Source: a virus. From it: a stretch of 23,382 nt of DNA. Where the stretch lies: positions 1 to 23,382 of IMG/VR virus record IMGVR_UViG_3300032241_000235. One strand, given 5' to 3'. This document shows, piece after piece, positions 1,315-13,240 of this stretch. The stretch's first letter is position 1. The number at the start of each line of letters is the position of its first letter. A program made the position numbers and the translations under genes. The notes below the pieces were generated by a model. It made no database searches, had not been told where the DNA came from, and saw only the letters and a program-made list of their open reading frames with translations.

Positions 1315-2444
1315 AGCTGACCGATTCTTACACGAAGAACGCCTGAGTTATAAACGTCAATCCTTTGGTTAGCTCCGTCAATTAATATATAGTTTCCAGG
1401 GCTTAAAGTAAACGTAGCAGTACCCGCAGTAATGTTACCCAGGTTTGCGCTAATCGCACTTAAGTTTGTAGCATTGATCTTTGCAGTACCAGTACTGTCA
1501 TACACTATGTTTGCAGAAGAGTTACCGAAAGCAAAAGTACCATCGCTATTGACTGTTATACCTGAGCCAGAGCTAACCGTATGGTTTGTAGAGTCTATTA
1601 CTGGATGAGTTGATCCTGCGTAAACATTGGTTCCAGATATGGTTCCTGCGGTGATTGTTCCAAGATTTGCACTTATTGCACTTAGCGAACCCACTTTTAG
1701 TGTTGCAATAAAAGGTGCTACCCAAAGGGTTAACCCAGTTGTAGGGTTGTATATTCCATCAATTTCCCACAAGTTTTGACCTGCGTTATAAGTAGATGGG
1801 TTTGCTGACCAAACTTCTGTTCCACCCCAAGTTCCTGTTGGAGGAAAGCTTGAGCCTCCACTTGTTGTAATTGTGGCAGGAGTGTTTCCCAAAGTACCCG
1901 TGTAAACAGTAAACCCTGTTCTAGCTTGAAGGTTATTGCTACTGCCAACCAAGGTCAAGTCAATAGGACCATTAGCAGTCCAATCGGGTACAACTTGGTA
2001 ATAAGTGGTTGGTGCGCTTAAAGCTGAAATTAGATTAATCTGCAATCCACCAAAGATTTGATACCAAAGTGAATTAGAAGCCCCAAAGCCTCCTTGTATT
2101 TGAAACCAGGCAAAGTCAGCAGGGCTAGGAGAGCTATAGACGTTAGAGTTGCTATTACGCAACCCATAATATTGAGAGCCTGTATAGCTACCAGAGGGGC
2201 GTTGAATCGTTGAAGAAAACCCTTGGTTACCCGCATAGTTATCTGCGTATGCAACATACAAATATCTATAAAGATAAGCAGTTGTCTGCCCAATAGTCGT
2301 TGTAGCAGGTACTGTATTGTTGTTATTGTTAACTACACCTGTATTGAAGTTAGACGAGTAGTTAGCTCCCAGGTTTGCCAGGATATAGTTAATCGCCTGT
2401 GCTAGTTGGGCACTCGATGCAGATGGGGTAACAAAGTAAGACAT
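1311..2444 (-). CDS. Tail-tip / fibre protein with repeated SAISANLG motif (377 aa)
   Basis: This 377-residue protein has a short N-terminal helical segment (residues about 8-25, ASSAQLAQAINYILANLG), a beta-rich aromatic middle, and a C-terminal fibre-like region. The motif LSAISANLG followed by (T/N)ITAGT appears twice, near residues 254 and 331. This type of repeat is common in receptor-binding or central-fibre C-termini of phage tail proteins. The C-terminus (residues about 345-377) reads like a short capping beta domain. Its start overlaps the stop of the tail nozzle gene as TAATG. From its place directly after the nozzle gene I infer a distal tail (needle, tip or fibre) component. It has no visible enzymatic motif. 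Confidence 0.7.
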   Translation of the reverse strand: MSYFVTPSASSAQLAQAINYILANLGANYSSNFNTGVVNNNNNTVPATTTIGQTTAYLYRYLYVAYADNYAGNQGFSSTIQRPSGSYTGSQYYGLRNSNSNVYSSPSPADFAWFQIQGGFGASNSLWYQIFGGLQINLISALSAPTTYYQVVPDWTANGPIDLTLVGSSNNLQARTGFTVYTGTLGNTPATITTSGGSSFPPTGTWGGTEVWSANPSTYNAGQNLWEIDGIYNPTTGLTLWVAPFIATLKVGSLSAISANLGTITAGTISGTNVYAGSTHPVIDSTNHTVSSGSGITVNSDGTFAFGNSSANIVYDSTGTAKINATNLSAISANLGNITAGTATFTLSPGNYILIDGANQRIDVYNSGVLRVRIGQL

Positions 2445-4141
2445 TAGAACGCATCCTCAACAATGGTTGATAAGAAGGTCATGGCAGTCATATTCCATGT
2501 GTTTGTAGCATCATTAGTGCCAAACTTCAACGCTACAGTCCTTACGTCATTCTGGGTAGTTGTAACCCAAGGATCGTTGGTAACAATATGGCATTGCTCT
2601 GTATCACCAAACGTAGGAGTTTGAGCAGTCGAATTAGCTCCTCCAAGGGTAATATAGATGTAAGGTGCGTTGCTAGGCGTAGTCGTTGAAATCTCAGGGA
2701 AAAGCCTGTGAACGTAAAGTCTATGTGGATAACTTATAGGGTTACCTTCACCATCCAGTAAAGTGAGGTTATCTCGCTCAAAAAGACAGTTAATAGCATT
2801 TCCTGAGAAAGATGTGCCTTGACCTGTCTGAATAAGTTGCAAGCCTCCTGCGCCTGTATTAGGGGCGTATACAGTACATCTAGAAGATAGATTAAACGTA
2901 CTGGTAGTCGTGTTGTATACAGGAGCTTCAACCGCCATAGCACTATTGTTAATAGTCTTAGGCGCATTCCAAACCTTGAGATCGTATCTCCAAGATAGCA
3001 TTTGATCGCAATATCCTGTGGAATTTAAACTTGGATAGTAAATCTCAACCTGGTTCTTTTTTGTATTATTAACAACATGAACTGCGCTTATGTAGTTAGG
3101 ATTAAGATTTGAGTAGAAGTAATTCTTTAGTTTTTGGTTGGCTAAAGATACAAATTGTGATCCGTCAAAAGCCCAAATATCTCTTGCATCAACTCCGTAA
3201 ACAACGTCATCTCCGTTATCCCAACAGTTTTGGTTTAGTAACCCTCTACCCTTTTTGAAGGGAGCTATTGCAAATACAGGAGCAGTCTGAGATTGATACG
3301 CTATTGGAGCAAAGATAACTGTATCCCAGTAGCTACAGACGTAAAAGTTTGCGCCCAGGGGAAATCCATCGATCAGAGGTCCACGAACGGGCACCTCTAA
3401 TTCGTTGGCAGTATTAGTAAGAGTTGGTTGCCAGGTATGTGGAACACCTGTATTAGCAAAGGTTTGACTCCATCTTACAGTTGTAGGATAGTGAGTAATT
3501 GCTCCACCAGATGTAGCAGTTTTTGTAAGGTTTCCTGCTATCAGAATGTTACCAATGTTAGGCGCAGAGTACTCTCTTACAAATGCCGCTTGAACAGATG
3601 CAACACCTACAGTAATCTCGTAGTTCCAAATGTTTGTAGTCAGGGTTACAGGGTCTACGCTATCAAACAATGCTATTGCGGTAGAAGGAGATGGCAATAG
3701 ATACATTGGAGGGTTAATGTTGTCATTAATGAAGAACACCTGCCCAATCCAAGCTCCTGTGATCGGAGGAGTTGGCGCAGGACTTCCACTAATTGATCCT
3801 GAGTAACTGTAGCCAGTAGTTGTGCTATAGGTTACATAAGGTGATGGAGGAGTAATTACGCTTATTCCTGCAATGTTAACCTTGTACCAAACACCTGCTG
3901 AAGTAGCTACTATGTAGCACCAGTCATTGTTTGATCTAAACCCTGCCTCCATGTAAATAATATTACCTGAGATAGCAGAGAGTATTGGTGCTTCACCATC
4001 AACCTTTTTAACACCTCTTACATCTGCTTCAATGTTATACCCTGCGTTGTATTCGTTAGCCGCAAGAGCATTACTTGGAACATCTGGCGTAAAGCTTATG
4101 TTCGCAAAAGGAACTCTTAGTGGGGTATAACCTTCAGCCAT
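2444..4141 (-). CDS. Tail nozzle / stabilisation protein (P22 gp10 / T7 gp12-like)
   Basis: A 565-residue protein starting MAEGYTPLRVPFANISFTPD. The frame extends upstream to a TTG at 4153, but the ATG at 4141 lies just past the stop of the previous gene and is the better start. Near the N-terminus it carries the family's typical element in which a gene-specific Asn-rich strand leads into a GVKKVDGE motif. The middle has the characteristic run where the protein names its own blades (VVYGVDARDIWAFDG), followed by an EIYYPS element and a WRYDLKVWN strand, as in nozzle proteins of podoviruses. In that family the protein forms a hexameric beta-propeller tube closing the short tail below the adaptor. 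It is separated from the adaptor by the whole fibre array, which is unusual. Family assignment is from pattern recognition, with no alignment. Confidence 0.78.
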   Translation of the reverse strand: MAEGYTPLRVPFANISFTPDVPSNALAANEYNAGYNIEADVRGVKKVDGEAPILSAISGNIIYMEAGFRSNNDWCYIVATSAGVWYKVNIAGISVITPPSPYVTYSTTTGYSYSGSISGSPAPTPPITGAWIGQVFFINDNINPPMYLLPSPSTAIALFDSVDPVTLTTNIWNYEITVGVASVQAAFVREYSAPNIGNILIAGNLTKTATSGGAITHYPTTVRWSQTFANTGVPHTWQPTLTNTANELEVPVRGPLIDGFPLGANFYVCSYWDTVIFAPIAYQSQTAPVFAIAPFKKGRGLLNQNCWDNGDDVVYGVDARDIWAFDGSQFVSLANQKLKNYFYSNLNPNYISAVHVVNNTKKNQVEIYYPSLNSTGYCDQMLSWRYDLKVWNAPKTINNSAMAVEAPVYNTTTSTFNLSSRCTVYAPNTGAGGLQLIQTGQGTSFSGNAINCLFERDNLTLLDGEGNPISYPHRLYVHRLFPEISTTTPSNAPYIYITLGGANSTAQTPTFGDTEQCHIVTNDPWVTTTQNDVRTVALKFGTNDATNTWNMTAMTFLSTIVEDAF

Positions 4142-4142
4142 A

Positions 4143-4319
4143 TTAAGTCTCAATAACTTTTAATAAAGTAACTACAACTGAAATAATCAACCCTGCAAGC
4201 ATTTGGTGCATAGGGGTTAAAGGAAACTTCATTACAAACCCTTGCAATACAGAAAGTACTGCAATTACTAAAGCCCATTGAACCTGCTTTGATTTAAGTA
4301 CGGTAATTAGTGTGTTCAT
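4143..4319 (-). CDS. Small membrane protein, putative holin (58 aa)
   Basis: A 58-residue frame starting MNTLITVLKSKQVQWALVIA. It has two hydrophobic segments, about residues 15-29 and 41-54, separated by a short loop with KFPLTP, and ends in LKVIET. This layout (basic N-terminus, Trp at the membrane edge, VLSVLQG, then a Pro-rich turn and a second helix) matches small phage proteins often annotated as holins. Holins time lysis by opening holes in the inner membrane. It overlaps the upstream small gene as ATGA and ends one base before the nozzle ATG. No endolysin lies in the window, so the lysis role is an inference; another small inner-membrane function is possible. Confidence 0.6.
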   Translation of the reverse strand: MNTLITVLKSKQVQWALVIAVLSVLQGFVMKFPLTPMHQMLAGLIISVVVTLLKVIET

Positions 4320-4495
4320 TTTCCTGTCGCTTGTAATTGCGCTTCAGTTGGTTGTGGATTGCTATTTGTCCATGACTTTATGTAGTCACCTTTGCCGTCA
4401 CTATCGTTTTGCAAAAGAATAGTTGCTGGAGGATGACCAAAATCATTGTTTGTTAATGTAGGGTAAATAGTTAAAATTTGTTCATATAAAGTCAT
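4316..4495 (-). CDS. XkdW-like small tail-region protein (59 aa)
   Basis: A 59-residue frame starting MTLYEQILTIYPTLTNNDFG. It contains a central ATILLQNDSDGKGDYIKSW element and a PQPTEAQL tail. This matches the pattern of small XkdW-like proteins found near tail-fibre and lysis genes in many phages: an amphipathic N-terminal helix, an ILLQ(N/D)DxDG turn, then (A/S)W and PTxEQL. The biochemical role of that family is not established. The start has a strong ribosome binding site (AAGGAG about nine bases upstream). It ends in an ATGA overlap with the holin-like gene. Recognition is by eye from the motif. Confidence 0.65.
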   Translation of the reverse strand: MTLYEQILTIYPTLTNNDFGHPPATILLQNDSDGKGDYIKSWTNSNPQPTEAQLQATGK

Positions 4496-4496
4496 A

Positions 4497-4949
4497 TTAG
4501 TTACTCCTTATATAAGAACCATTAAAATAAGTGTTTGTAGAACCACTATTAAATGTACAAGTCCCAGATGCGTAAACAACACCCCAAAGTTCTACATAAT
4601 CAGTTGAACCATTTAAATAAACAATAGAGGATACAAAATCTACCGCATTATTATTGTAAGCAGTAGTACCATTTGCATAAAGTGAACCATTCTTATATAT
4701 AGAAATAAGTTGCAATGTAAATGTGCTTGTTGCACTTCCCTGCATAGCGCCATTTATTTGGTAATAACCAGCAACAGTAGGGGTAAATCTATAATTACTT
4801 GTACTGTAATTTGAGTTTGTATCAAAATTACTTGTATTAAATGCAATCTTTGTATAAGTGTTGGTTGTTACTGTTTGATTATTACTAGCATAAGCACTAA
4901 ACGCAGGACCACCTAGTGACATTTGTGGTTGTACTTGGGTCAGAGACAT
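4497..4949 (-). CDS. C1q/TNF-like domain tail appendage protein (150 aa)
   Basis: A 150-residue protein made almost entirely of one C1q-like jelly-roll domain. After a short lead (MSLTQVQPQMSLGG) comes the hallmark PAFSAYAS strand, then KIAFNTSNFDTNSNY, then the FTPTVAGYYQINGAMQ element, and later an YKNGSLYANG hairpin. These correspond to the conserved AFSA, FN, NY, Fxx-VAGxYxxNG and NG positions of C1q domains. In phages such trimeric heads sit at fibre tips and contact receptors. There is no collagen-like stalk in the protein itself, so it probably caps another fibre in this array. The gene is A+T-rich (about 25-35% G+C in the lines counted by hand), suggesting separate acquisition. Confidence 0.78.
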   Translation of the reverse strand: MSLTQVQPQMSLGGPAFSAYASNNQTVTTNTYTKIAFNTSNFDTNSNYSTSNYRFTPTVAGYYQINGAMQGSATSTFTLQLISIYKNGSLYANGTTAYNNNAVDFVSSIVYLNGSTDYVELWGVVYASGTCTFNSGSTNTYFNGSYIRSN

Positions 4950-4950
4950 A

Positions 4951-5202
4951 TTACACCTTTGCTTGTGATGCTACTTGAGCTTGATAGGCAGAGATAACTT
5001 CAGAAGTCCATACTGCTTCACAAATAGCTTTTACTTTAGCATCCTGAGTGCTTACGTCTTCACCAGGAGTTAGTACCCACCTAGAGAAGTTACGAGCTAT
5101 CTCATTACCTGAGTCTGTTATAACCTGAGCTTGGCGTACTTGTACAACACCGTTCTCTAGGACTTCGATGCGATCTATGATGTTTTGTGATGCGAGTGTC
5201 AT
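4951..5202 (-). CDS. Small conserved tail-region protein (83 aa)
   Basis: An 83-residue protein starting MTLASQNIIDRIEVLENGVV. It has a DRIEVLENGVVQVRQA strand pair, a Trp-containing RWVLTPGEDV turn, and a C-terminal helix (VKAICEAVWTSEVISAYQAQ). Proteins of this shape, with IDRIEV..NG..QVR and LTPGxDVSxQ, recur among small genes in phage tail-fibre clusters, but I know no assigned function. Start choice is supported by AAGGAG eight bases before ATG. It lies two bases from the next gene. A small chaperone or a virion accessory are both possible. Confidence 0.65.
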   Translation of the reverse strand: MTLASQNIIDRIEVLENGVVQVRQAQVITDSGNEIARNFSRWVLTPGEDVSTQDAKVKAICEAVWTSEVISAYQAQVASQAKV

Positions 5203-5211
5203 TGTGACTCC

Positions 5212-5757
5212 TTAGAAATTAGCTTGATATGTTGCAGTAAGAGAATAAATACTTAATGTTCCTGAATTTAAATCAGACGCTGCAAGAGTTCCTGCATAAT
5301 ATCCTGCATTGAATTTTTGTATGGTAAAAAAAGTTAAACCGCTTGCTATTTGAGGAACTAATTGCGTAGTGCTAGTAATGGCAACTCCGTTATTATCAAA
5401 CCTTATTGCTCCATTTGAATTTTGTTGTGTTATTCCTGTAGTCCCTGATGCTGTAAAAGGCAGATTGCCAATTTGTAAAAAACCGCTTAATGTATTTTTT
5501 GTCCAGCTACCAATAATTAAAGAAACGTAAACTAATTGACCTATCTTTATATATTGACCAGAAAAAGAACCTCCAGATATTGCACCCCCGCTACCACCAG
5601 TTATATTTGGCGTAAAAGTCCCTGTCTCATAGTCAGTCAGCGTAGATGCACCAATAGCACTTGAGTTGTTAAAGTTTATCCCCGCATTAGATACAGGAAT
5701 GTTTATGTTGCCACTTGAATTGACAAGGCTTGCTAAGTATTGTGCGTTTGTTGCCAT
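5212..5757 (-). CDS. Tail fibre / appendage protein with DYETG module (181 aa)
   Basis: A 181-residue protein with a short lead (MATNAQYLASLVNSSGNINI) followed at about residue 41 by a TDYETGTFTP element. After that come strands with YIKIGQLVYVSLII and GNLPF. This DYE(T/E)G(T/S)(W/F)TP - YxKIGxxVxV - xxNLPF module is a widespread beta-rich appendage domain in phage fibres. The same module forms the C-terminal third of the neighbouring 322-residue protein, so the two are clearly related there. Its probable role is a fibre tip or decoration domain facing the host surface. The start is supported by an AAGGA sequence upstream of ATG. Specificity is unknown. Confidence 0.72.
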   Translation of the reverse strand: MATNAQYLASLVNSSGNINIPVSNAGINFNNSSAIGASTLTDYETGTFTPNITGGSGGAISGGSFSGQYIKIGQLVYVSLIIGSWTKNTLSGFLQIGNLPFTASGTTGITQQNSNGAIRFDNNGVAITSTTQLVPQIASGLTFFTIQKFNAGYYAGTLAASDLNSGTLSIYSLTATYQANF

Positions 5758-5766
5758 TGTTGATCC

Positions 5767-6735
5767 TTAGACCGCAGATAGGTATGTAAATGAGCCAGTA
5801 AAGTGTGGAGTTCCAGAAGGAAGAGTATTGCTATTGTCGTACCTCCAAAAAATAATAGAAGTTCCTGATCCTGCACTTAATCCCCAAAAATATCCTGTAA
5901 TCGCATTTTCTCTTAATATTCCAGAAGAACTATTTCCGCTTGCTTGAGAAAAAGGAAGGTTTGTAATAGTTACATTAGAGGCACTTGAAGTAGATGCAAA
6001 GTTAATAAGCATATTTACAGTTACCATGTTACCTATTTTGGTGTAACTTCCAGAAGTTGTTGACAAAGTAAAACTTCCAGTACCTGCGGTTAAAGTAGGA
6101 GTCCAAGTTCCTGTTTCGTAATCATTTAATGTGGCTTGAGTACCTCCACCAGGATTAGCCGCAAAGATTATTCCTGTCTGTACTGTTGTTGTACCACTAA
6201 GGGTTAAGTTAGATGCCAAGTTAGTAGTACCCACACTACCCGCAGTATTCGGTATAGCATTAAGCACAGAGCTAACCAGGAAGCTCTCAATCGCTACTAA
6301 GTCACCTGATGCCGCTCCACTTGCCAGTACTACCGTTGTACCGTTTGTAGCCGTGTAGTCTGCTGATCCTAGTCTTACACCGTTTCTGTATACGTTAATA
6401 AACCCTACCGTATAGCTAGGAGGAGTAAAGGTTGTCTGTGATGCAGTAGCAGTAAACTCAGTTACTGTTCTGTACGCAGTTGTTGTGACGTTACTTGCAG
6501 GTATACCTAAGTACCTTGCAGAGATGTTGCCTGTGCCGACTGGCGGGGCGGATGAGAATGTTAGCGTTGTACCAACTACAGAGTATGTTGATGGGTCTTG
6601 TAGAACCCCTGATACGGCAACCAGAACAGATGCTGTATTAGCAGGAGCCACAGACATTGTGAACGTAGTTCCTCCATTCCCAGAGAATTGATCTGTGAGA
6701 AAGGCTACCTGGTAAATGGGGTTTCCAATATACAT
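5767..6735 (-). CDS. Modular tail fibre protein (322 aa)
   Basis: Three parts are visible. Residues 1-78 form an N-terminal module beginning MYIGNPIYQVAF and containing an SGVLQDPSTYSV turn and TFSSAPPVGTGNI. Residues about 85-155 hold a related beta module with FINVYRNGVRLGSADYT. Residues about 205-322 form a DYETGTWTP module with YTKIGNMVTVNMLI and TNLPF. The N-terminal module recurs in the 250-residue fibre gene upstream, and the DYETG module recurs in the 181-residue gene downstream. I infer that the N-terminus anchors to the virion and the C-terminus is exchangeable. The start has an AGGATAAAACT spacing before ATG. No chaperone or enzyme motif is visible. Confidence 0.77.
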   Translation of the reverse strand: MYIGNPIYQVAFLTDQFSGNGGTTFTMSVAPANTASVLVAVSGVLQDPSTYSVVGTTLTFSSAPPVGTGNISARYLGIPASNVTTTAYRTVTEFTATASQTTFTPPSYTVGFINVYRNGVRLGSADYTATNGTTVVLASGAASGDLVAIESFLVSSVLNAIPNTAGSVGTTNLASNLTLSGTTTVQTGIIFAANPGGGTQATLNDYETGTWTPTLTAGTGSFTLSTTSGSYTKIGNMVTVNMLINFASTSSASNVTITNLPFSQASGNSSSGILRENAITGYFWGLSAGSGTSIIFWRYDNSNTLPSGTPHFTGSFTYLSAV

Positions 6736-6739
6736 AGTT

Positions 6740-7006
6740 TTATCCTACGATTGCTTTGACTTCGTCTTGTGTAAGTCCTAGAGCAGTTAACTTTGCTAGT
6801 GCAGATGCCTTAGCGTTTGCTTGTGCTTGTTGTTCGTTAGCGTAATTTGTTTGAAGGGTTACTAACTCTGCTTCTACTGTTGCAGGGACAATAGTTACTT
6901 CAGCACCGTTTTGGTCTAAGCAGGTTAAAGAATTAACGTCATTACCATGAATAGTAACTACGTTTGAATATACGGCTCTTACCGCATCGTGAATTGTTGG
7001 TTGCAT
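6740..7006 (-). CDS. Small hypothetical protein in fibre cluster (88 aa)
   Basis: An 88-residue protein. The N-terminal half is mixed, with HDAVRAVYSNVVTIHGND and a beta hairpin around CLDQNGAEVTIV. The C-terminal half is a continuous helix rich in Ala, Gln and Leu, ending KLTALGLTQDEVKAIVG. That ending resembles the helical tails of small phage structural accessory proteins. Its ATG overlaps the stop of the upstream fibre gene as TAATG, with a good GGAG site inside that gene's last codons. Function unknown; a small fibre-associated protein or assembly factor would fit the context. Confidence 0.65.
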   Translation of the reverse strand: MQPTIHDAVRAVYSNVVTIHGNDVNSLTCLDQNGAEVTIVPATVEAELVTLQTNYANEQQAQANAKASALAKLTALGLTQDEVKAIVG

Positions 7007-7758
7007 TATCTTATCTCCTGTGCAGTTAAGTTTAAATACCCATATCCAGGACCATTATTCATTAAATATACTGCATTTGAATTTGAAGATGCAATATATA
7101 TTGTGTATGTTAATGAAGATGTAGAATTTGGAGCTTCAAAAAATGATTGTGTTACAGGTAATGCAATTGCGTTTGAACTTGGATTTTCTATTTCAATCCA
7201 ATTTTTTGCATTTGGAATAATATTTGAGCCACCTCTCCATAATTGCACATAAAGATTTGTTGATGCTAAAACTGCGGCTCCATAGCAAGTCATCAAAAGA
7301 AAAATTTTACTCGTAGAAAATTGAGGAGTTATAGATACTGAATACGATGTTGATACAAAACTTGTACCAGTTGTTGATGTTGATGATTGATAATATGAAT
7401 TAACAACTTGAACAATACTACCTGTAGGTTGTTGTACCGCAGTCAATATTTGACTTTGTGGCAATTGAGCCGCTCCAACAGTACCAGGGCTAGGAGCAAT
7501 AACTTGGGTTATTAAGCTTGTGTATTCAACCCAGATGTTGTTTGTTCCTGTTGGAGGAGCAGAACTAAAGGTAATTGTGTTACCAGATACTGTGTATGCT
7601 GATCCAGGGTTTTGAACCACGTTAGCAACACTCACAATCAATTGTGCAGTCGTAGCTACAGGACTTGGCAATGTAAATGCCGTTGTACTAGCGTTTCCGC
7701 TAAAGAACGCAATTTGAGGTGCGTATCCTTGGTTTTGAACGGTGTTGCCTATGTACAT
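7006..7758 (-). CDS. Modular tail fibre protein with divergent C-terminal domain (250 aa)
   Basis: The N-terminal half (residues 1-about 88) begins MYIGN and contains SVANVVQNPGSAYTV and ITFSSAPPTGTNNIWVEY. It matches the N-terminal module of the 322-residue fibre. A linker with VGAAQLPQSQI leads to an unrelated C-terminal beta domain (about residues 125-250) containing an YVQLWRGGSNIIP hairpin and FFEAP, like small receptor-binding heads of other phages. By hand count, 7081-7380 (C-terminal part) is about 31% G+C, while 7441-7740 (N-terminal part) is about 43%. The difference suggests the C-terminal domain came from elsewhere. Probable host-range determinant. Confidence 0.77.
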   Translation of the reverse strand: MYIGNTVQNQGYAPQIAFFSGNASTTAFTLPSPVATTAQLIVSVANVVQNPGSAYTVSGNTITFSSAPPTGTNNIWVEYTSLITQVIAPSPGTVGAAQLPQSQILTAVQQPTGSIVQVVNSYYQSSTSTTGTSFVSTSYSVSITPQFSTSKIFLLMTCYGAAVLASTNLYVQLWRGGSNIIPNAKNWIEIENPSSNAIALPVTQSFFEAPNSTSSLTYTIYIASSNSNAVYLMNNGPGYGYLNLTAQEIR

Positions 7759-7759
7759 A

Positions 7760-8086
7760 TTAGGTTATCTGTAAAACGGAAAGAATTGCATCCATAGAAC
7801 TTGCAGTTCCAGATACGACTGTAAACGCATCGCCAGTATTTAACACTACTTTACCATCACCACCAAACAAAGCTAAAGAGCCTCCTACAGGGATCGTAGC
7901 ATTGTTAACAAGGTAGTAGTTCACCGCAGATGCAGTTATGTATACGCTTGCAGTAATAGGGCTACTTGTCGTGTTTGACAATGTTAAACCTATTGCAGTT
8001 GTCTGCGTTGCAGATGCGGCAGTTACAAGCACTACAGGCGTAGTACCTACCGATTTAGATGTATAACGAGTAAAGGTATTTGCCAT
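7760..8086 (-). CDS. Small virion/fibre-associated beta protein (108 aa)
   Basis: A 108-residue, Thr/Ser/Val-rich protein starting MANTFTRYTSKSVGTTPVVL. It has an IGLTLSNTTSSPITASVYI strand series, a central IPVGGSLALFGGDGKVVLNTGD motif, and a C-terminal ASSMDAILSVLQIT. This is a recognisable pattern of small phage proteins found next to tail-fibre genes (N.T....TA.V.......YLV....IPVGG...GGD.KVVL.tGD.......SS.DAI.S.LEIT). Its function is not established. The fold is probably a beta sandwich used as a minor virion or appendage part. A clear AAGGA site precedes the start. Confidence 0.7.
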   Translation of the reverse strand: MANTFTRYTSKSVGTTPVVLVTAASATQTTAIGLTLSNTTSSPITASVYITASAVNYYLVNNATIPVGGSLALFGGDGKVVLNTGDAFTVVSGTASSMDAILSVLQIT

Positions 8087-8098
8087 GTTTTATCCTTG

Positions 8099-8410
8099 TT
8101 AGCCGAGGGCTATGCTCATTGCGACTGCGGTTCCTGCTGGGTCTACCTGAAGTCCTGATTGTGCCGTTGCTACTGTTGTACCGCCTGTTCCACCGTTTGC
8201 TACAGACAAAGGTAGTGAAATAGCGGCAGTTGCTTTTGTTGCAATAACCTGTACAACTCCACTATTATCCTTATAGAAGAGTTTACCATCAGTTATGTTT
8301 ATTGCTAATTCTGAGCCGTTTGTGTCGTTCGTCAAGTTACCCGCAGATGGAGTATTCGTAGCAGTTGAACTGCTATATAGTTGAACTTTTGAGTATGCCG
8401 TTTGTGCCAT
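8099..8410 (-). CDS. Small fibre-type protein (103 aa)
   Basis: A 103-residue protein beginning MAQTAYSKVQLYSSSTATNT. The elements GSELAINITDGKLFYKDNSG and SLPLSVANGGTGGTTVATAQ match a domain usually found inside long phage fibre proteins: a (V/L)xELA(I/L)NxxDGKLYYKD repeat followed by a GGTG-rich linker. Here it stands as a separate small gene. It may be a detached module of a larger fibre or a fibre-associated small protein. The start has TAGAGG close upstream, overlapping the stop of the previous gene's region. Function inferred from the module only. Confidence 0.7.
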   Translation of the reverse strand: MAQTAYSKVQLYSSSTATNTPSAGNLTNDTNGSELAINITDGKLFYKDNSGVVQVIATKATAAISLPLSVANGGTGGTTVATAQSGLQVDPAGTAVAMSIALG

Positions 8411-8419
8411 AGTTAACCT

Positions 8420-8821
8420 CTAGAAAGAGCCTCCACCAATTGTCGCACCATTTAGCGTTCCACCTGTAATTGCTACTGCATTAGCATTTTGAAGAGCCAT
8501 TGTTCCAAACGATGCGCCTGTCGAAAATGCAAACTCACCAGGCGTAGACCAAGTTAATGCGTTGGGATTTGATGAGCTAACCACCGCAATAGATATCCAA
8601 ACATTTGACAAAGGATTTACAGGAGGGTTTGCCAACCAACCAGTAGGAGCAGTACCCGTATTGGTTGTGAAGTTCCATGAGCCTCCTGTTGGCGTAGCAG
8701 GTTGTGTTGAGCCTACCTGGTAAACATACCATTGAAAGTATGTTCCACCATAAGTAATCCCTTGACCGTAAAGCCCGTTAGACTCTTCGTTAGTTAACCC
8801 ATAAAAGCTATTGGTCATCAT
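8420..8821 (-). CDS. Miniature paralogue of the long fibre (133 aa)
   Basis: A 133-residue protein whose N-terminal about 100 residues match the first 85 of the adjacent 954-residue fibre: both have FQW(Y/F)V(Y/F)Q, then ATPTGGSWNF, PTGW, VW(I/V)SIA(V/L)VSS and TWSTPG. Its last residues (NGATIGGGSF) match the end of the long fibre (NGVSIGGGTF). All the stalk and repeat region between them is missing. This looks like an internally deleted duplicate. It may still be made, since the start (tandem ATGs at 8821/8818) has a GGAGG site and it overlaps the upstream stop. It could occupy the same virion socket as the long fibre; that is inference. Confidence 0.75.
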   Translation of the reverse strand: MMTNSFYGLTNEESNGLYGQGITYGGTYFQWYVYQVGSTQPATPTGGSWNFTTNTGTAPTGWLANPPVNPLSNVWISIAVVSSSNPNALTWSTPGEFAFSTGASFGTMALQNANAVAITGGTLNGATIGGGSF

Positions 8822-11685
8822 TAGAATGTTCCTCCACCAATAGAAACCCCATTTACGTTGCTTACCGTTGAGCCAAGGGCGTAAGCAGTAGATCCAAAAG
8901 TTATTGAGCTATTAGTTAACTGAGAATTAGCAATTGATCCTAAAGTACCACCCAAAGTGAGTGATCCACTAGAAGTTACAGTTCCTGTCAGCGTAATACC
9001 GTTAACTGAGCCTGTGCCAGATACTGAGGTTACTGTACCGCCTGTGCCTGTTGCGCTAAGAGTTCCCCCGCTAAATGAAACCCCAGAACCTATAGCTACA
9101 TTTGAAAATCCACCCGATCCATTTCCATAAAGGATTGCCGCTCCAGAAGTGGGAGGCGCATAATCAGTACCAGAGGTTGCGGCAGATATTGCCGTACCAT
9201 TACCCTTTAAAAGACCTGTAATCGTTGTTGTAAGCGTTATTGCAGGAGTTGTTGAGGCAGTTGCTACCGTACCCGCAAACCCGTTAGCTGAGACTACAGA
9301 GGCAGAAGTTACAGTTCCTTGAGGATTGCTTGCAGTAGTTACGTTTGTAACCCTACCGTAAGTGTCAACAGTAATTACTGGTATTAAAAGGCTTGATCCT
9401 GTAGTTCCTGCTGTAACTATTCCAGAAACCAAGTCGATTGCAGGTGTTGTACCTCCGCTCGATGTTGTTCTTCCTGTTGTTCCTGTTACAGATGTGACAT
9501 AAGTTCCAGATGGTTGTTTATTGTTAAACGTATTCCAATCTGTAGAACTTAGATAACCACTTGTAGATGTTGTTGCCTGGCTAATGCTTATTGCAGGAGT
9601 TGTTCCTCCGCTAGAAGATATAACCCCGCTTCCTGTAACGCTTGTAACGGTTCCAACACTAATACTTCCACCTAAACTTGTGGACGTACCATTAATCGTA
9701 ATAACACTATTGGCTAACTGAGCATTGGTTATTGTTCCTGATAATGCCGTAGTAGGTATCGTGGTGCTTGCAGTATGTGCGCCTGTACCATTTGCATATA
9801 CATAACCTGTAATTGTTCCCGCTACACCTGTACCACCATAAGCAGCACCAATAATGTTTCCTTGCCAAGTTACAGATCCAGATATGCTGCTTGCAGAATT
9901 AAAGTTTAAAGTAGCATTGCCCCATGAAACACTAGAAGGAACATAAGAATGTACATCCCATGTACCATTTGTTGTAGAGTTTGTAAGCAAAATAACATGA
10001 GCTGCACCACCTGCTTGCAATGCAAGTATTGAAGTTGTTCCATCGTGTGCATTAATTTGAACAGATGAGTATGTTATGTTGTTATTAAAATAAAAAGTAT
10101 CACCAACCGTTAAGGTTGTAGCATCTGGCAAATTAAATTGCTGAGAAGTTGTAGTTCCATTAACAATCTGATATTGAGCAGATGCAATTGTTAAATTAAT
10201 GGGTGTAGACGAAGATGTTGTAGTTGTTACATTTGGAATAAAGTTATTTGCATATACATTTTGATTTGTATCACGCAATAAAACAGAATTTGCACCAGAA
10301 GTGCCATAAGAACTTCCCCAAGCACTACCTGTTGACAAAGGTATTCCAGAACCTGGGTAAACCATTGGTGAAGTGTTTGTAATGGTTACCGCTGAACTAC
10401 CGTTGTAGCTTGTTCCGCTAAGACCTGTGCCAATCGTTAAGGCGTTCAGGTTTGATCCCAAAGAAACGCCAGAAATAGTACTGTTTGTTAAAGAACTATT
10501 GGGTATTGCAGTAACCTTCGATCCCGCAAGACTTGTGATCCAAGCAGGGTTTGAATAGCTACCAGTTGTATATACGCCATTGGTAACAGTACCTGCATTG
10601 CCTGTGACGTTAATACCCCAAGTGCCAGAAGCTCCTGTACCCGTGTAAGTAGGTGCTCCGACATCAGTATTTGTCAGTACAACTGCGCCTGTATAACCGT
10701 TAACTGAGGTTACTAAGTCAGAATTATCAATCTTTTCCCAAGATGTACCGTTAAAGATTGCCCAGTCGTTTGGTTGCCAATCTGTAATTCCGTTAAGGTT
10801 TGTTGTGCCGCCTACGCTAACAATGTAGTAATACCCATTAGTTCCAACAGAGGAAGTAAGGGTAGGCGTATTGGTATTTGCATTCCAAGTGCCTTGATAA
10901 GCCAAAACACCTGTAATTGTTGACCAAGTTGTATCGTAATCAGTATTACTGTTTTTAACTAATGCTTGACCAGTTGTACCACCTGCCTGAACACCTGCAC
11001 CTTTGGGTATGCCAAAGTTAAATACTGCCGCAGAAGAAGTACCTGAATTGGTAACAGTAGCCGATGTGCCTGGCGCAGTAGTCGTTGTTGTGCCAACTGC
11101 AATTGTTGCCGCATTACCAGGAATGCCTTGAGGTATTCCAAAGTTAAAGGTTGCCGCACTAGAAGAACCACTATTGGTCACCGTAGCAGGTGAGCCAGAT
11201 GACAGGGTTGTCGTAGTGCCTACCGCTACAGTAGCCGCACTACCAGTTGGTCCTGTGGGTCCTGTAGGACCTGTTGGTCCAGTTGCACCTTGAATACCCT
11301 GCGGTATGCCAAAGTTTAAAACTGCGTTATAAGTTGTTCCGCTATTGCTGACAGTAGCAGGACTTCCTGCCGACAATGTGCTTGTTGTGCCAACAGATAC
11401 TTGACCTGCCGCACCTTGTTGATACCATAGCCCTGGCGTTGACCAGGTGAAGGTTGTAGGCGATAACGAAGATACTAGGGCTATAGATACCCATACTTCG
11501 TTAGAAGGGCTTGCAGGGGGCGCATCTGACCATCCTGTTGGAGGTGTTCCTACATTGGTTTGAAAGTTCCAAGAGCCACCAGTAGGCGTTGCAGGTGCAG
11601 TAAGCGAAGACTGAAATACAAACCATTGGAACTGGACAATTTCCACTCCACTATATTGATTGCCATAAAGACTATTTGATGCCAT
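8821..11685 (-). CDS. Long tail fibre with collagen-like segment and tandem repeats (954 aa)
   Basis: The largest protein of the window. Residues 1-90 are an N-terminal module with ATPTGGSWNF and TWSTPG. Residues 94-231 contain three diverged repeats, each with (S/A)VGTT.TLS.G.PATV.NSG and FNFGIP(Q/K)G. A short collagen-like run (GATGPTGPTGPTGPTG) at about 133-148 sits between repeats 1 and 2. Further on are a GYYYIVSVGGTTNLNGI - DWQPNDWAIFNG element, a VNGYTGAVVL strand, and many Ser/Thr/Gly-rich passages including YLSSTDWNTFNNKQ, all common in phage fibre stalks. The C-terminus ends NGVSIGGGTF. No S74 or other autoprotease motif is visible. It is the probable trimeric long fibre for host binding. 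AAGGA supports the start. Confidence 0.82.
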   Translation of the reverse strand: MASNSLYGNQYSGVEIVQFQWFVFQSSLTAPATPTGGSWNFQTNVGTPPTGWSDAPPASPSNEVWVSIALVSSLSPTTFTWSTPGLWYQQGAAGQVSVGTTSTLSAGSPATVSNSGTTYNAVLNFGIPQGIQGATGPTGPTGPTGPTGSAATVAVGTTTTLSSGSPATVTNSGSSSAATFNFGIPQGIPGNAATIAVGTTTTTAPGTSATVTNSGTSSAAVFNFGIPKGAGVQAGGTTGQALVKNSNTDYDTTWSTITGVLAYQGTWNANTNTPTLTSSVGTNGYYYIVSVGGTTNLNGITDWQPNDWAIFNGTSWEKIDNSDLVTSVNGYTGAVVLTNTDVGAPTYTGTGASGTWGINVTGNAGTVTNGVYTTGSYSNPAWITSLAGSKVTAIPNSSLTNSTISGVSLGSNLNALTIGTGLSGTSYNGSSAVTITNTSPMVYPGSGIPLSTGSAWGSSYGTSGANSVLLRDTNQNVYANNFIPNVTTTTSSSTPINLTIASAQYQIVNGTTTSQQFNLPDATTLTVGDTFYFNNNITYSSVQINAHDGTTSILALQAGGAAHVILLTNSTTNGTWDVHSYVPSSVSWGNATLNFNSASSISGSVTWQGNIIGAAYGGTGVAGTITGYVYANGTGAHTASTTIPTTALSGTITNAQLANSVITINGTSTSLGGSISVGTVTSVTGSGVISSSGGTTPAISISQATTSTSGYLSSTDWNTFNNKQPSGTYVTSVTGTTGRTTSSGGTTPAIDLVSGIVTAGTTGSSLLIPVITVDTYGRVTNVTTASNPQGTVTSASVVSANGFAGTVATASTTPAITLTTTITGLLKGNGTAISAATSGTDYAPPTSGAAILYGNGSGGFSNVAIGSGVSFSGGTLSATGTGGTVTSVSGTGSVNGITLTGTVTSSGSLTLGGTLGSIANSQLTNSSITFGSTAYALGSTVSNVNGVSIGGGTF

Positions 11686-11693
11686 TTCAGTCC

Positions 11694-12683
11694 TTATTTG
11701 AAGCTATAGCGATAGTTCCTGGGTTGGAACTCGCTTGACAAGTGTCTATCTCCACCGCTCCAAAGGTCTTTCATAGCTTGATCTTCAATCAAACCGTAAG
11801 CCGAATCAAATCTAGCATTCCATTTCTCAGACTCTGCTACGTTCTTTTTCTTGTCGTAGTAAACAGATAAAACCTTATACATATACCCTTCAGGGAATGT
11901 AGCAAGAATAGCGTTGTTCTGCACTAAAGGAGTTAATGAATCTCCAGTAGGACCAAGCAAGAATGGGAATGACTTCACATAATATGCAAGGATTGTTGTT
12001 GCGTTGCCAGGGTTAGGCGTGAACATATAGTTCGGTCCAACTTCTGAGAACTGAGCTCGAATAACCCTTGGCACACCAAAAGGCTTAACGTAGAGTTGAT
12101 CAATCATTGACAAGCGAATAATTTCTCTATCGCCAACTCTATCGTAAATAATCCAAGGACCAAACCCTGCATTTAAAGTACCTGGAGGCACTTGTGTAGA
12201 AGGAGTTTGTTGAAAGAAGATAATAGGCCAATTCATGTCCGCAGGTATAGGAGCCATACCATTGGTATTTGTAACGATCTGAGAAGGGCTTACAGGGTCG
12301 TAAGGATTGCTTCTTAGTGCAGGAAGATAAATTGTTCTAAACGACAACTCAGCAAACTGAATACTGAATTGAATATCTAAAGTTGATTGTGTTGGCAACT
12401 TCAGAATAGGTGTTGGTAAAGTAAATGCACCCCAAATAAGATCAGGGTCAGAAACAACAATTGTGCTTGATGTAACAGATATAACCGCAGTAAACGGTCC
12501 TACGGGCGTGGGTGAGATAAAGTCTCCCACAAACACCAAAGAAGTAGTATCAGAAGCAGTTGTAATTGCTCCGCTAGTAGGGTTATATGCCGTTGCGTTA
12601 ACCGATACGCTTGAGGGAATCGCTCCAACCCATTGAGCCACTCTGGTAACAAGACTGTTGGCAGATTGGATAAAAAGCGACAT
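11694..12683 (-). CDS. Putative head-tail adaptor / neck protein (329 aa)
   Basis: A 329-residue protein in the position after capsid where short-tailed phages encode connector proteins. The first 250 residues are beta-rich, including a PPGTLNAGFGPWIIYD stretch. Residues about 262-310 form a helical pair (FPEGYMYKVLSVYYDKKKNV, then ESEKWNARFDSAYGLIEDQ) resembling the A/L-rich helix pair of adaptor proteins, in which a YY motif is followed by a W..RF helix. The C-terminus is basic and aromatic (RHLSSEFQPRNYRYSFK). The RBS AGGA lies nine bases before ATG. Role as an adaptor that docks under the portal ring is an inference from position plus that motif; no firm family match. Confidence 0.5.
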   Translation of the reverse strand: MSLFIQSANSLVTRVAQWVGAIPSSVSVNATAYNPTSGAITTASDTTSLVFVGDFISPTPVGPFTAVISVTSSTIVVSDPDLIWGAFTLPTPILKLPTQSTLDIQFSIQFAELSFRTIYLPALRSNPYDPVSPSQIVTNTNGMAPIPADMNWPIIFFQQTPSTQVPPGTLNAGFGPWIIYDRVGDREIIRLSMIDQLYVKPFGVPRVIRAQFSEVGPNYMFTPNPGNATTILAYYVKSFPFLLGPTGDSLTPLVQNNAILATFPEGYMYKVLSVYYDKKKNVAESEKWNARFDSAYGLIEDQAMKDLWSGGDRHLSSEFQPRNYRYSFK

Positions 12684-13208: not shown

Positions 13209-13240
13209 AAAAAAGGAGAGAGCCTTTTGAGCCCTCTCCT
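13209..13240 (-). terminator. Intrinsic (Rho-independent) terminator after the major capsid gene
   Basis: Read on the minus strand, an arm AGGAGAGGGC (13240-13231), a seven-base loop and the complementary arm GCTCTCTCCT (13223-13214, one G-U pair) form a ten-pair stem, directly followed by six Ts (13214-13209). It lies between the capsid stop and the next start. A hairpin here would lower tail-gene transcripts relative to capsid, a common phage arrangement. The hairpin is seen directly; its efficiency is inference. Confidence 0.85.

Follow-up and report, generated by a model that had tools for sequence, protein, structure and literature searches.

Gene content of the fibre array

The stretch of DNA analysed here (the window) is the entire IMG/VR record IMGVR_UViG_3300032241_000235, a linear phage fragment of 23,382 bases, and the element in question is the array of tail fibre genes lying between the gene of the head-to-tail adaptor and that of the tail nozzle. 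All the main genes are located on the minus strand, namely those of the terminase, the portal, a gene in the scaffold position, the major capsid protein, g18 and the adaptor, followed on the same strand by the fibre array, the nozzle gene and three further genes. A first-pass annotation had described ten consecutive, tightly coupled genes at 4497-11685, and all of these open reading frames are indeed intact, lie on the minus strand and are separated by gaps of -1 to +12 bases; the count was extended, as two more small genes (4316-4495 and 4143-4319) complete the interval up to the nozzle gene, which makes 12 tightly packed minus-strand genes at 4143-11685. Shine-Dalgarno-like sequences precede most array genes, and no terminator-like site was found on the coding strand between them, the sole weak match lying inside g16. 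The features are given below from the adaptor to the nozzle; loci of other phages carry L numbers.

11694..12683 (-): g17, head-to-tail adaptor, left border of the array (Pfam SU10_adaptor PF24175, 27.3 bits against a cut-off of 27)
8821..11685 (-): g16, long fibre with an N-terminal ATPTGGSWNF domain, a collagen-like and repeat stalk and C-terminal GGGTF
8420..8821 (-): g15, fibre module with a second ATPTGGSWNF copy and C-terminal GGGSF (58% to the g16 N-terminus; 89% in L163)
8099..8410 (-): g14, fibre module of the DGKLFYKD type (tail fibre matches in PHROGs; 98% in L163)
7760..8086 (-): g13, conserved small structural protein opening the invariant g13/MYIGN-1/MYIGN-2 series, the putative docking series
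7462..7758 (-): g12 residues 1-99, MYIGN-1 anchor domain (98% in L163)
7006..7461 (-): g12 residues 100-250, putative receptor-binding tip of the LME-1 orf22 type (profile match to PDB 9efk)
6740..7006 (-): g11, small partner (s11) for tips of the g12 type, assigned by its position directly after such a tip in 26 of 28 dereplicated cases
6211..6735 (-): g10 residues 1-175, MYIGN-2 anchor with predicted jelly-roll and gp10/XD-like domains (at most 90% in other phages)
5767..6126 (-): g10 residues 204-322, putative DYETG receptor-binding tip (DNA match in L169; predicted fold like the Det7 tailspike C-terminus)
5212..5757 (-): g9, free DYETG tip preceded by a short N-terminus (41% to the g10 tip)
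4951..5202 (-): g8, small partner (s8) of DYETG tips, assigned by its position after such a tip in 28 of 29 dereplicated cases (predicted fold with a predicted local distance difference test score, pLDDT, of 93)
4497..4949 (-): g7, free C1q-like tip (Pfam C1q E 0.006, below the cut-off)
4316..4495 (-): g6, XkdW-family small partner (s6) of C1q-like tips, located after such a tip in 26 of 27 cases (Pfam XkdW PF09636, 34.9 bits, cut-off 24.6)
4143..4319 (-): g5, small hydrophobic protein of one or two helices, possibly a holin (79% in L084)
2444..4153 (-): g4, tail nozzle, right border of the array (PDB 8zkk, nozzle gp16, and 8zkm, nozzle; E 4e-12)

Four genes of the window thus bear three tip families. 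The relatives of g13 in named phages are virion structural proteins, and residues 1 to ~60 of g14 match L084 too. Neither g8 nor g11 obtained a functional name from Pfam, PHROGs or NCBIfam, and no polysaccharide-degrading beta-helix was matched in the array by the Pfam scan, the fold models being those of g10 and g8. The g11 family has one N-terminal half and two alternative C-terminal halves, the ALGLT type and the FDTIFHEGLDAWK type, the latter matching phrog_9114 (for example, L283:656-916 against window 6740-7006).

Modules common to neighbouring genes

In a BLASTP comparison within the window, the N-terminal ATPTGGSWNF domains of g15 and g16 share 58% identity (E 6e-26), the MYIGN domains of g10 and g12 49% (E 6e-14) and the DYETG domains of g9 and g10 41% (E 8e-7), similarities that at the level of sequence are far above chance. 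These three modules, each present in two genes, bear out the sharing between neighbours that had been described earlier, with the exception of the C1q-like module, which is common to other phages and occurs only once in the window. The MYIGN, DYETG and C1q modules are recurrent domains, found in ~150, ~50 and 88 fetched loci, respectively. No mention of the DYETG/DYEEG motif was found in the literature searched.

Variability in relatives and origin of the g13-g10 block

Relatives of complete size (40-42 kb) are numerous. The terminase is 80% identical to that of an uncultured Manatee Spring phage and ~32% identical to those of Bruynoghevirus-like Pseudomonas phages (named collections), and a scan of bacterial genomes for hosts with g13 returned zero relatives. 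In the 46 relatives possessing both borders, the adaptor-to-nozzle interval contains 1-13 genes according to our own gene caller, with a median of 6, and spans 3.6-8.9 kb; only one of them reaches 12 genes or more. The first fibre retains the ATPTGGSWNF N-terminal domain in 41 of 49 arrays.

The closest relatives have core genes 85-96% identical to those of the window and possess no counterparts of g13, g12, g11, g7 and g6. DNA similarity to L084 ends within g14 and returns at g8, and therefore a block of ~3 kb has been replaced. The genes of the g13-g10 block were found in many other phage contigs, with protein identities of up to 98-99%. None of the 31 records carrying the anchor genes contains the window's terminase (positive controls, 3/4), and 7 of the 16 tested records of this kind hold a different Terminase_6N protein; judging from these sequences, the block is common to phages with unrelated terminases. 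The lack of the block in the closest relatives might also be expected if the metagenomic contig were an assembly chimera, but L163 independently spans the end of g16, g15, g14, g13 and the g12 and g10 anchors, L162 spans g13 to g10, and L084 has the flanking parts from adaptor to nozzle, so that a chimera is barely credible.

Two kinds of genes were noticed by eye in the arrays of relatives. L093, L095, L096, L119, L127, L154 and others possess, between adaptor and nozzle, a conserved gene of ~350 residues starting with MKIAVYAISKNEEKF, which is absent from the window and looks glycosyltransferase-like with repeats. Small array genes in L095 (a gene of 166 aa), L102, L135, L106, L289 and L272 resemble HNH or GIY-YIG homing endonucleases, and such putative endonucleases within the fibre arrays could drive exchange.

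Invariant gene order and recombination seams

The order g13, MYIGN-1, MYIGN-2, with one copy of each, was observed in all 69 dereplicated loci, and g13 immediately precedes MYIGN-1 in 67 of them. The loci were collected via similarity to g12 and g10, and therefore the presence of these genes was selected for, while their order and copy number were not.

Against this fixed order the tips change. L163 is 92% identical to the window at the DNA level from the end of g16 through residue 99 of g12; the identity breaks exactly at the end of the MYIGN-1 anchor, where L163 has a different tip, returns across the g10 anchor and stops again at the anchor end. From the NDYETG motif onward, the g10 tip and the tip carried by a MYIGN-1 protein of L169 share 97.4% DNA identity, and the conserved N-terminal part of g9 terminates at its own DYETG motif, so tips pass from one type of anchor to the other at a conserved seam. 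The recombination of modules proposed at first from protein similarity is thus supported at the level of bases, with breakpoints at domain borders (the anchor ends and the DYETG motif). Comparable module exchange has been reported for Kuttervirus tailspikes (PMC8432352).

Pairing of tips with small downstream genes

For three tip families, defined from the window, the gene following each tip was classified, and dereplicated pairs with a recognised small gene were counted. A DYETG tip is followed by a member of the g8 family in 27 of 28 pairs; in all 26 C1q-like pairs the second gene belongs to the g6 family, and in all 26 g12-type pairs to the g11 family. In this test, fixed from the window's own modules, the overall concordance is 79/80, the permutation mean being 26.7 and the maximum 44 in 20,000. 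With two more families included, whose tip/partner pairs were picked after the fact, having been noticed while reading the loci, 138 of 139 pairs in five families are concordant; here the profile match had to end at most 60 residues from the C-terminus, which lowers the DYETG counts. The coupling is independent of whether a tip stands on MYIGN-1, on MYIGN-2 or free, and the partner family is kept at tip identities down to 25-33%. On these counts the small genes, labelled "accessory proteins" in the first-pass annotation, can be described more sharply as tip-specific partners.

Eight records of named phages were fetched for carrying a g8 relative, and in seven of them, namely cyanophages S-CAM4, S-SBP1, P-SCSP1k and P-RSP2, roseophage CRP-804, pelagiphage HTVC168P and the uncultured ctz7E20, a DYETG tip ends the gene directly upstream; in DSL-LC05 the g8 relative has no DYETG tip upstream. 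Co-travel of neighbours is the default, and a recognised partner is missing for many tips, as might be expected if the free tips and small genes were passengers (morons) acquired recently, without a common function and held together by linkage only. Still, the pairing holds at low identity, across unrelated phage families and in three N-terminal contexts, and the genes are under purifying selection (see below), which leaves this explanation very doubtful.

By analogy with V22 gp27 and A5 gp9, the small partners are most likely chaperones or caps (PMC7289586, PMC10579305). They may instead be retained in the virion as structural end pieces and serve as the adhesin itself, like gp38 of T2-type phages: tip-specific pairing suits an adhesin as well as a chaperone, and the partners of the T2/S16 and Mu systems remain attached (discussed in PMC7289586). 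The small proteins are, however, conserved about as much as the tips or more, and for the C1q pairs the median identity is 68% for the partner and 45% for the tip, the opposite of what is expected of an adhesin, so this role seems rather unlikely.

Predicted folds

The AlphaFold2 model of g10 (37 sequences, pLDDT 71) consists of three beta domains. Residues 88-153 superimpose on residues 187-250 of CBA120 TSP4 with Z 9.6 and a root-mean-square deviation of 1.4 over 64 residues, the local pLDDT being ~80, which suggests a gp10-like XD docking domain at the N-terminus of g10; the XD domains of CBA120 TSP4 dock other tailspikes (PMC8825819). Residues 206-321 resemble the Det7 tailspike's C-terminal domain (Z 10.1) and the heads of reovirus sigma fibres (Z ~9), and residues 8-78 match the N-termini of T7-type fibres weakly (Z 6.6). 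A search of PDB sequences with the g10 profile returned antibody-fragment matches only, which were rejected as spurious.

According to a profile match, the g12-type tip corresponds to the C-terminus of the LME-1 fibre orf22 (PDB 9efk, E 2e-24), a structure of which no mention was found in the literature searched. The g8 protein is confidently modelled (pLDDT 93) as a three-stranded sheet with a helical hairpin; the fold search gave no solved relative, the best match being the G5 domain of IgA1 protease (Z 5.4) and the top viral matches uncharacterised proteins.

Selection and switching machinery

The ratios of nonsynonymous to synonymous substitution rates (dN/dS) are 0.04-0.32 for the anchors, the small genes and the g10 tip, and 0.89 for the g12 tip against a 37% identical relative, a distance at which the estimate is unreliable. 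These ratios indicate purifying selection on all the compared anchors and small genes and on one closely matched tip (g10). In 20 records of the lineage, some of which are fragments, no RVT_1 reverse transcriptase or Resolvase serine recombinase was detected and the single Phage_integrase match, for a tyrosine recombinase, was below the cut-off; no inverted repeats were found in the array. Because no recombinase or inverted repeats were found, and in view of the purifying selection, programmed fibre switching by a diversity-generating retroelement (DGR), a shufflon or an invertible segment is disfavoured.

The hypervariability of the array among close relatives and the exchange visible at the base level would also suit a reservoir, in which g16 would be the only fibre in use and the genes after it a stock of spare tips, switched or recombined in upon host change. 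Such spare genes are hard to reconcile with an array in which all genes are intact, tightly coupled and mostly provided with a ribosome site, the close-range comparisons of genes indicate purifying selection, the order of the docking genes never varies, free and anchored tips alike retain the partner, and the switching elements listed above are lacking apart from the match below the cut-off, and we regard a reservoir as distinctly unlikely. Of the two purposes proposed at first, several appendages per virion is now favoured on these sequence data, and the swapping reservoir is disfavoured by the invariant order, the purifying selection and the failure to find a recombinase.

A proposed receptor-binding apparatus

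The array probably encodes a multi-part, likely branched or else stacked, receptor-binding apparatus of a short-tailed phage, built of interchangeable units. In this model, g16 would be a long fibre fixed near the adaptor, with g15, g14 and g13 extending or capping it, and MYIGN-1 (g12) and MYIGN-2 (g10) would form two fixed docking positions by means of jelly-roll and gp10-like domains. Each MYIGN anchor would bear a trimeric tip that binds a receptor, with g9 and g7 acting as additional tips in the form of free proteins; the trimers, the docking and the stoichiometry of the parts we infer. The small gene directly downstream of each tip family would provide a matched folding chaperone or tip cap, and the tip together with its partner would be the unit of exchange. 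Homologous recombination between phages could then fit new tips onto the anchors at seams that are conserved, among them the DYETG motif, with no need of a dedicated recombinase. By analogy with CBA120 or RaK2, we infer that several kinds of tip are mounted together on one virion by means of gp10-like docking domains.

Several points weigh against this model. The phage is known here from its genes alone, the g10 model is that of a monomer and of middling confidence (pLDDT 71), and the model of the small protein g8 matched no known chaperone fold. For about half of the tips of the C1q and g12 types no partner was recognised, and in the window itself the g10 tip is followed by g9 and not by a small gene, so it may share g8 with g9. 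The tight linkage of neighbours could also be partly hitch-hiking, though the pairing persists at 25-33% tip identity.

Comparison with known systems

In phage SU10 (Kuravirus) the long fibres are attached to the adaptor and the short ones to the nozzle, with the fibre genes numbered between them (PMC9509320). The window has adaptor, fibre genes and nozzle in the same order (PMC9509320) and an adaptor of the same family, PF24175, whereas its fibre content is unrelated and far more fragmented and its terminase relatives of the SU10 kind are only distant. CBA120 (Ackermannviridae) and RaK2/phiK64-1 (Alcyoneusvirus) likewise encode several receptor-binding proteins with gp10-like XD docking domains; CBA120 and RaK2 carry several such proteins per virion, use T4 gp10-like XD docking and have modules swapped between spike types (PMC8825819, PMC8432352, PMC10253068). 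The window differs from them in belonging to a short-tailed freshwater phage with small fibre-head tips, in which no depolymerase was recognised, and in having a dedicated small gene per tip, and the branched complex is a proposal here.

A fibre gene with an adjacent chaperone gene, as in Alteromonas phages V22, A5 and P24, is common to distantly related phage families (PMC7289586, PMC10579305). The window type resembles these phages in its tip-specific partner gene directly downstream; there, one fibre goes with one chaperone of ~20 kDa, whereas here at least five tip families each have their own partner family of 6-11 kDa, with several pairs per genome. LME-1 orf22 (PDB 9efk) has a C-terminus of the g12 tip type and an N-terminus matching the second anchor domain of g10, but it is a single protein of 658 residues, while the corresponding parts are separate and swappable here. 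Finally, g6 exceeds the Pfam gathering cut-off for the XkdW family (PBSX, PF09636), which has a member among the tail genes of Bacillus phage Sam46 (PMC8190038); elsewhere the family is without established function, and here it is tied to C1q-like tips.

Multi-spike docking, chaperone adjacency and module exchange are already known as principles, and the new finding is that every tip family has a small gene of its own directly downstream. No description of a five-way tip/partner pairing or of an invariant three-gene docking series was found in a limited literature search.

Other observations

A strong terminator-like hairpin of 11 pairs followed by a T run (13214-13240) lies between the major capsid gene and g18 and is a likely step in expression between head and tail genes. 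Past the nozzle gene, the products of g2 (1021-1314) and g1 (356-1021) both start with MSFG, a likeness suggesting another small tail-related pair; their PHROGs matches, phrog_2427 and phrog_4062, are families without a known function. The contig end (22447-23382) comprises ~0.9 kb without a convincing gene. The record of Limnohabitans phage DC33 (PQ492659.1, L327) assigns it to Inoviridae, yet its 39 kb and fibre-like genes look like those of a tailed phage, and the taxonomy may be wrong.

Implications

Taken more generally, and tentatively, since we hold it to be somewhat less probable than not, there may be a general "tip code" in tailed phages, under which each of at least five tip families requires a small partner specific to it and the pair is a portable unit traded among unrelated phages onto fixed docking domains. 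If so, a dedicated role as tip chaperones or caps would fall to the orphan families phrog_6228, phrog_16631 and XkdW and to two others, and small phage families of unknown function would gain a concrete, testable role. For multi-fibre loci this would provide a rule, which is to locate the tip and expect its partner adjoining, and it suggests co-producing the partner when soluble receptor-binding proteins of environmental phages are made. Phages of different families in similar waters could in this way trade binding specificity while leaving the rest of the tail unchanged.

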